From NCBI RefSeq assembly GCF_001316005.1, contig NZ_BBBJ01000003.1, positions 124,001-188,000 on the forward strand: a stretch of 64,000 bases of DNA, given 5' to 3'. The notes under the pieces were generated by a model. It saw nothing but the letters and a program-made list of their open reading frames with translations, had not been told where the DNA came from and ran no database searches. Positions 39,457 through 40,622 of this stretch are shown here, in pieces (position 1 is the first letter of the stretch; every line of letters starts with the position of its first letter). The stretch comes from Vulcanisaeta distributa JCM 11217 (GTDB taxonomy: Archaea > Thermoproteota > Thermoprotei > Thermoproteales > Thermocladiaceae). Made by a program: the position numbers and the translations under genes.

Positions 39457-40430
39457 TTATCTAAGGTCAACCTGCCTACCATAACCCTCAAGAAACCTCC
39501 TCAAGTCATCCTCCCTAGGCAGGTTTTCCTCATCACCCCCCCTAACCATCACCACCATCGCAGCCGCTGCCGAAGCCCTCCTCATGGCACTCTCCACATC
39601 ATGACCTCTAAGTATTGATGCAAGGAAAACACCCGCATAGGCATCACCAGCACCTATGGGATCCTTAACAGGTACCCTAAATGCATCGACCTTAACAACC
39701 CTACCCTCCCAATATGCCACCGAGCCCTTAACGCCAAGCTTAAGCACAATCCTATCAATGCCGAATCTTGAACGTAACTCCTTAAACACATCATCAATTG
39801 CGGACACGCCAAGCAATAAATTTGCCTCATCCTCATCGAGGAACACAATATCCACGAAACTAAGCGCCTTCGAAAGCACGTTAATCGCATCCTCCACCCG
39901 CACCCACAGCTTCCTCCTATAATTAACATCAAATGACGTAGTAACACCCTTACCGCGGGCGATCTCCAACCCCCCTAAATGCTGCTGACCTAGCGGTGTC
40001 GCTAATGGCCATGGTTATGCCCGTCGTATGAAAAACCCTGGCACTACCAACGTAGTCTGGGTCCACATCATCAGCTTAAGGCCGAGGCTGCGGAACCCCC
40101 CCTCCTGTAATAGAGAACATCGCTGACGCCAGGTATTGGATAATTCCTCTGAACGAAGTATATGCCCGTGGGCCTCTCAGGGTCGAACTTAATATGACTA
40201 ACATCAACACCCTCGCCCCCCCTAAGCCAATTATAGATGAATAGACCAAACTCATCAGCACCAAGCCTAGTTATCAACCCACAACTAACGCCAAGCCTAA
40301 CCAGGGCAACGCATACGTTGGCCTCGGTACCCGTTGCGTGCTTCTCGAAGTAAGTAACGTGCCTAAGCGGTCCATCAGTAACGGCATTAAACTGAACCAA
40401 GGGCTCGCCCAAAGCCACAACCTCAGGCAT
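39457..40430 (-). CDS. kdgK: 2-keto-3-deoxygluconate kinase (PfkB family), two frame breaks
   Basis: About 320 residues. VVALGEPLVQFNAVTDGPLR, HATGTEANVCVALVRLG, DERP-like substrate loop RPTGIYFVQRNYPIPG and the PfkB signature DPIGAGDAYAGVF match crenarchaeal KDG kinase of the Entner-Doudoroff pathway. Breaks: near 40073 (AGCTGATG, probably AGCCCTGATG) and C6 at 39970-39975 (five give FRGLEIARGKG). Extra Gly from C7 runs at 40096, 40216 and 39536: the usual RKGSAGS and VRGDNE become RRGGSAAS and VRGGDEE. Confidence 0.85.
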
Positions 40431-40521: not shown

Positions 40522-40622
40522 GGGCCCGTAGTCTAGCCTGGTAGGATGCCCAGGGGCTGACGCCCCCCCGTACAAGCCTGACGCGCGGGAGATCCCGGGT
40601 TCAAGTCCCGGCGGGCCCACCA
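40522..40622 (+). tRNA. tRNA-Val(GAC) with intron, CCA encoded
   Basis: Acceptor GGGCCCG pairs with CGGGCCC, the T arm is CCGGG-TTCAAGT-CCCGG, and the D arm holds AGCCTGGTAGG. After removing 24 bases (40552-40575) the anticodon arm folds as CCCGC-CTGACGC-GCGGG, anticodon GAC. Discriminator A 40619, then CCA 40620-40622. The intron lies between positions 29 and 30, inside the anticodon stem, a known noncanonical site in Thermoproteales needing the archaeal splicing endonuclease. Confidence 0.9.
40552..40575 (+). other. tRNA-Val intron at position 29/30
   Basis: 24 bases. It contains GGGGC-TGAC-GCCCC, which would be a perfect hairpin if the C run had four C; the sequence shows seven (40563-40569). 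It also repeats the anticodon loop sequence CTGACGC of the mature tRNA. Confidence 0.8.

Follow-up and report, generated by a model that had tools for sequence, protein, structure and literature searches.

The tRNA-Val(GAC) gene of Vulcanisaeta distributa JCM 11217 carries an intron in which a run of seven C stands opposite a run of four G, and this raises the question of whether the three additional C belong to the organism or only to its sequence record. The gene was analysed within its window, by which we mean the whole stretch of 64,000 nucleotides. The window lies within contig C3 of the strain's assembly (G000; 2.08 Mb, 19 contigs, completeness estimated at 67%). Our answer is that the seven-C run is almost certainly an error of the record with a sequence-assembly origin and not a real feature.

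The same-genus set comprised 12 Vulcanisaeta genomes, namely G000, V. distributa JCM 11216 (G003; NZ_BBBI01, accession BBBI01) and ten others. V. distributa G008 was the reference for window synteny (80 kb), proteins, rRNA and tRNAs; G008, G010 and G004 are complete genomes. Vulcanisaeta sp. JCM 16159 (G002) and Vulcanisaeta sp. JCM 14467 (G005) are drafts with the accession prefixes BBDN and BBDM, respectively, and G020 is an assembly from another genus.

The tRNA-Val gene and its intron

The features of the locus were as follows.

40522..40622, + strand: tRNA-Val(GAC) gene, intron and encoded CCA included (ARAGORN, Rfam, relatives)
40552..40575, + strand: tRNA intron at position 29/30 (cloverleaf by hand, alignment of relatives)
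40553..40556, + strand: unlengthened G4 in the 5' arm of the intron stem (sequence, relatives)
40563..40569, + strand: C7 run, lengthened; CCCC in G008, G010, G005 and G002 (relatives)
40580..40582, + strand: anticodon GAC (sequence, cloverleaf, conservation in relatives)
39970..39975, no strand assigned: C6 run where the neighbouring gene changes frame (-3, -1, -2), one of the assembly's frame-breaking errors (protein matches)

The Rfam tRNA model RF00005 matched 40522-40619 with 44.2 bits over the whole model, with 35 bases separating the anticodon-stem arms. When the anticodon arm was laid out by hand as CCC + GC / CTGACGC / GCGGG, the cloverleaf placed the intron between positions 29 and 30, with its ends at 40552 and 40575. 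Without these bases the tRNA was complete, with a full cloverleaf by hand and exons conserved in the relatives. The anticodon called by ARAGORN (gene position 38, in the loop of the intron hairpin) was rejected, and cloverleaf and conservation placed the anticodon at 40580-40582. The intron loop also reads GAC at 40559-40561 by coincidence, and ARAGORN, run with its bacterial setting, put the anticodon there.

Introns of this crenarchaeal kind are excised by the tRNA splicing endonuclease at a bulge-helix-bulge-like motif, and the tRNA-Val intron is a predicted substrate of this enzyme. The central helix of the motif was absent from the single-sequence fold. Laid out by hand, three of its four pairs formed at the junctions (40549-40570 C-G, 40548-40571 G-U and 40547-40572 U-A) and one was an A-C mismatch (40546-40573), so that the motif is imperfect compared with the strict form of crenarchaeal introns. 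Position 29/30 is named among the non-canonical archaeal tRNA intron positions in excerpts of the published list (PMC4090602). The intron resembles the non-canonical tRNA introns of crenarchaea (Thermoproteales) in being a short stem-loop, in its position as given in those excerpts and in its presence in relatives of the same genus; it differs from them only in how long one run of its stem is written, which we explain as an error. The tRNA-Val intron itself is an ordinary crenarchaeal tRNA intron, and beneath the record there would be an ordinary crenarchaeal tRNA-Val with a 29/30 intron, presumably with the GGGGC/GCCCC stem of the relatives.

Read directly from the sequence, the hairpin consists of a 5' arm GGGGC (40553-40557), a loop TGAC (40558-40561) and a 3' arm GCCCC (40562-40566). 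The first-pass annotation had described a GGGGC-TGAC-GCCCC hairpin exceeded by three C, with an unchanged complementary G4. Both points were borne out, with seven C at 40563-40569 and G4 at 40553-40556. It had also read the intron as an RNA case of runs inflated from four to seven and had named conservation of the longer intron in relatives as evidence against it. Seven C was found in none of the four same-genus counterparts (L010 in G008, L009 in G010, L012 in G005, L011 in G002), all of which have CCCC, in support of that reading. The intron is 24 bases long as written, 21 in G008, G010 and G005, and 20 in G002, which has one G fewer on the opposite side of the stem. The proposal that the hairpin offers a structural test held in part: the hairpin and its three left-over C are real, but the test is weak alone, because seven C do not prevent that hairpin from forming. 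Folding of the intron RNA by itself yielded this hairpin and three left-over C, at -10.1 kcal/mol; for the four-C intron of V. distributa the same hairpin came out at -9.9 kcal/mol. Structure alone is thus no bar to seven C, and we judge the seven C wrong by the relatives and the assembly-wide pattern, not by folding energy.

Very similar GGGGC...GCCCC introns occurred at the same place in tRNA genes L002, L003, L004 and L006 of G000 and L015 of G003. One stem run was written as seven in each of the four introns of G000, and both were in L015.

Run lengths in the window and across assemblies

The window contained 1135, 53, 14, 8, 102 and 12 G/C runs of lengths 3, 4, 5, 6, 7 and 8, respectively, compared with 1475, 239, 35, 4, 0 and 0 in the syntenic 80 kb of G008. 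A second-order Markov model predicted approximately 264 window runs of length 4 and approximately 3 of length 7. The spectrum of A/T runs in the window was normal. Counted over whole assemblies, isolated 7-runs numbered 3857 in G000 (2031 + 1826) and 4803 in G003 (2522 + 2281), and the ten remaining genomes of the genus had 0 to 5 each. The tRNA-Val intron is one of thousands of lengthened-run cases in G000. Among 81 genomes of the class, the only further genome with thousands was G020 (7958), the next having 310; in 398 genomes drawn from the phylum, G020 not included, the next highest count was 340. The same signature, an excess of G/C runs of exactly seven and a deficit of four, was thus seen in G020, from another genus. 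The affected assemblies have estimated completeness values of 67, 67 and 47%, and the complete genomes of the genus were unaffected.

Individual runs were compared between genomes where the three flanking bases on both sides were identical, so that a minority of the runs was covered. Among 28 G/C 4-runs of G008 aligned with the window, 17 were written as 7, 7 as 4, 3 as 5 and 1 as 3. When G003 was compared with G002, to which it is 95.3% identical, 141 such runs were aligned, of which 78 were 7, 52 were 4, 5 were 5, 4 were 6 and 2 were 3; runs of five became 5, 6, 7 or 8, and A/T 4-runs were unchanged in 145 of 145 cases. The "+3 step" of the first-pass annotation accordingly describes most changes but is not fixed, since 4 to 5, 4 to 6, 5 to 7 and 6 to 8 also occurred in the rRNA and in the G003/G002 pair. 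In G002 itself, some sites had a shortened G/C 3-run.

Of the sites that G000 and G003 share, 18 had 7 in both, 9 had 4 in both and 14 were discordant (Fisher p=0.10). Run status is thus at most weakly associated between the two assemblies, unlike an inherited trait. In 951 pooled runs of four or seven from G000 (L122-L125), G003 (L052-L055) and G020 (L110-L113), the share of length 7 was strand-symmetric (290 of 466 for C, 311 of 485 for G). Sequence context was considered as the main cause of lengthening and rejected, as it had little effect in these 951 runs (next base p=0.019, previous base p=0.058, C versus G p=0.59). A rule by which one of two paired hairpin runs is lengthened was also rejected: four other intron stems of G000 fit it, whereas the G003 stem has both runs lengthened. 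Pooled neighbouring runs at most 15 bases apart were both 7 in 24 cases, mixed in 18 and both 4 in 7, a split that speaks against any one-run-per-pair rule.

Lengthened runs in rRNA, tRNAs and proteins

In the 23S rRNA of G000, aligned with that of G008, seven stood for four at 22 places and eight for five at 7 places; the comparison covered G000 runs of at least four (70 rows) and took the longest reference run within eight columns, so that single rows are approximate. Mature tRNAs were affected as well. One anticodon loop had eight C compared with six in G008 and G010, and the D-arm of a tRNA-Leu had G7 compared with G4 in three relatives. Lengthened runs were also present in acceptor arms, in a reading that covered 30 of the 37 tRNA matches and in which some runs were trimmed by the match ends. 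A tRNA with anticodon CCC (Gly by codon; L094:1501-1578, L126, L127) has C for the usual U at position 33. The same C33 is found in G008 and G010, both of them complete, in a loop that reads CCCCCGA by hand numbering.

Where window 7-runs lay inside protein matches, 77 of 80 added one residue relative to V. distributa; a further 22 lay within no protein match. When G008 proteins were matched to the DNA and genes were scored as broken if more than one frame was needed along a single gene, 28 of 73 genes were broken in G000, 30 of 81 in G003 and 35 of 82 in G002. The corresponding numbers in complete genomes were 2 of 82 (G010) and 1 of 79 (G004). The window showed 39 frame changes, 22 at a G/C run of at least four and 17 elsewhere, indicating that other indel errors exist too.

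Origin of the lengthened runs

We are highly confident that the three extra C are not present in the organism and belong to an assembly-wide artefact of homopolymer length, likely from a flow-based draft batch. The lengthening affects many sites throughout the assembly, includes sites that would not tolerate it (rRNA, mature tRNAs, reading frames) and goes with the assembly rather than with descent, since G003 alone is affected in a pair with G002 that is 95.3% identical and since G020, from another genus, is affected too. Lengthening of 23S rRNA and mature tRNAs could hardly be tolerated in a cell, and together with the broken frames and the assembly-bound pattern it argues for an artefact. 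G/C runs of at least four would have been reported too long, mostly four as seven but also four as five or six, five as seven or eight and six as eight. Somewhat over half of such runs would be affected, A/T runs and nearly all G/C 3-runs being spared.

The likely source would be an Ion Torrent PGM-type run combined with a consensus step in a batch of culture-collection drafts; we infer the platform for the window's own record. Ion Torrent PGM is documented for BBBK01 (V. souniana JCM 11219), a sister accession of that of G003 (PMC9872577), and, in an excerpt of its report, for a further draft from this collection, assembled with Newbler 2.8 (PMC3900890). Errors of flow-based methods (454, Ion Torrent), as excerpts of the literature describe them, are alike in being confined to homopolymers and in producing frameshifts and miscounted runs. 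They are unlike the present errors in that here there is a strong +3 preference at length four, only G/C is concerned and many runs are intact.

Read-level homopolymer errors are mostly of one base. A jump of three with few intermediates is odd for such an error and counts against the artefact explanation; the change from four to seven rather than to five looks like the work of a consensus or calling step and not of random read errors. G002 and G005, drafts of the same collection, lack the G/C effect, which counts against a collection-wide cause; a batch or processing step must therefore matter, and the cause is batch-specific at most. A literature search at abstract level found no description of the exact pattern, G/C-only and mostly +3 at length four.

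An artefact introduced by a different technology or during software conversion, instead of by flow-based sequencing, would account for the +3 change with few intermediates and the restriction to G/C, and it gains from G002 of the same collection, which has a different anomaly (L056-L059; A/T runs of 6, 7 and 8 numbering 0, 9 and 3 per 80 kb). Given the Ion Torrent PGM record of the sister accession and the excerpted one of the other collection draft, we consider such an origin unlikely, though it retains some chance. It is very improbable that the other runs are mostly artefacts and the seven C of the tRNA-Val intron are nevertheless genuine: introns tolerate changes of length and the hairpin still forms, but four same-genus counterparts have four C, and about 60% of window G/C 4-runs are lengthened to seven in any case (17 of 28 against G008). 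Practically no credence is left for a real mutational process that, in one other genus as well as in some Vulcanisaeta lineages, lengthens G4/C4 by roughly three bases, with the frame kept by selection in genes, for although the excess is very large, consists mainly of +3 changes, is alike on both strands (290 of 466 and 311 of 485) and leaves the frame intact in 77 of 80 cases, it reaches 23S rRNA as well as mature tRNAs (anticodon loop, D-arm, acceptor arms), is accompanied by frameshifts in one third of genes, differs between strains 95% identical, shows no clear inheritance at shared sites (p=0.10) and occurs in assemblies estimated at 67, 67 and 47% completeness but not in the complete genomes of the genus. 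Real expansion or phase variation would be confined to sites where it is tolerated or regulated, and close relatives would share it by inheritance; the 23S rRNA, the G003/G002 pair and the shared sites showed otherwise, and a Vulcanisaeta lineage tolerating a real genome-wide step of about +3 at G4/C4, rRNA included, is very improbable.

With the artefact as the preferred explanation, public genomes serving as species representatives contain thousands of lengthened G/C runs, which distort tRNA and rRNA calls and introduce spurious residues into proteins. Frame breaks occur in approximately one third of genes of the affected records, and their completeness estimates are probably lowered. Claims that runs expand, that frames shift or that a tRNA has an unusual structure are unsafe when made from such a record alone. 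The count of isolated G7/C7 runs against that of G4/C4 runs provides a simple flag for affected records.
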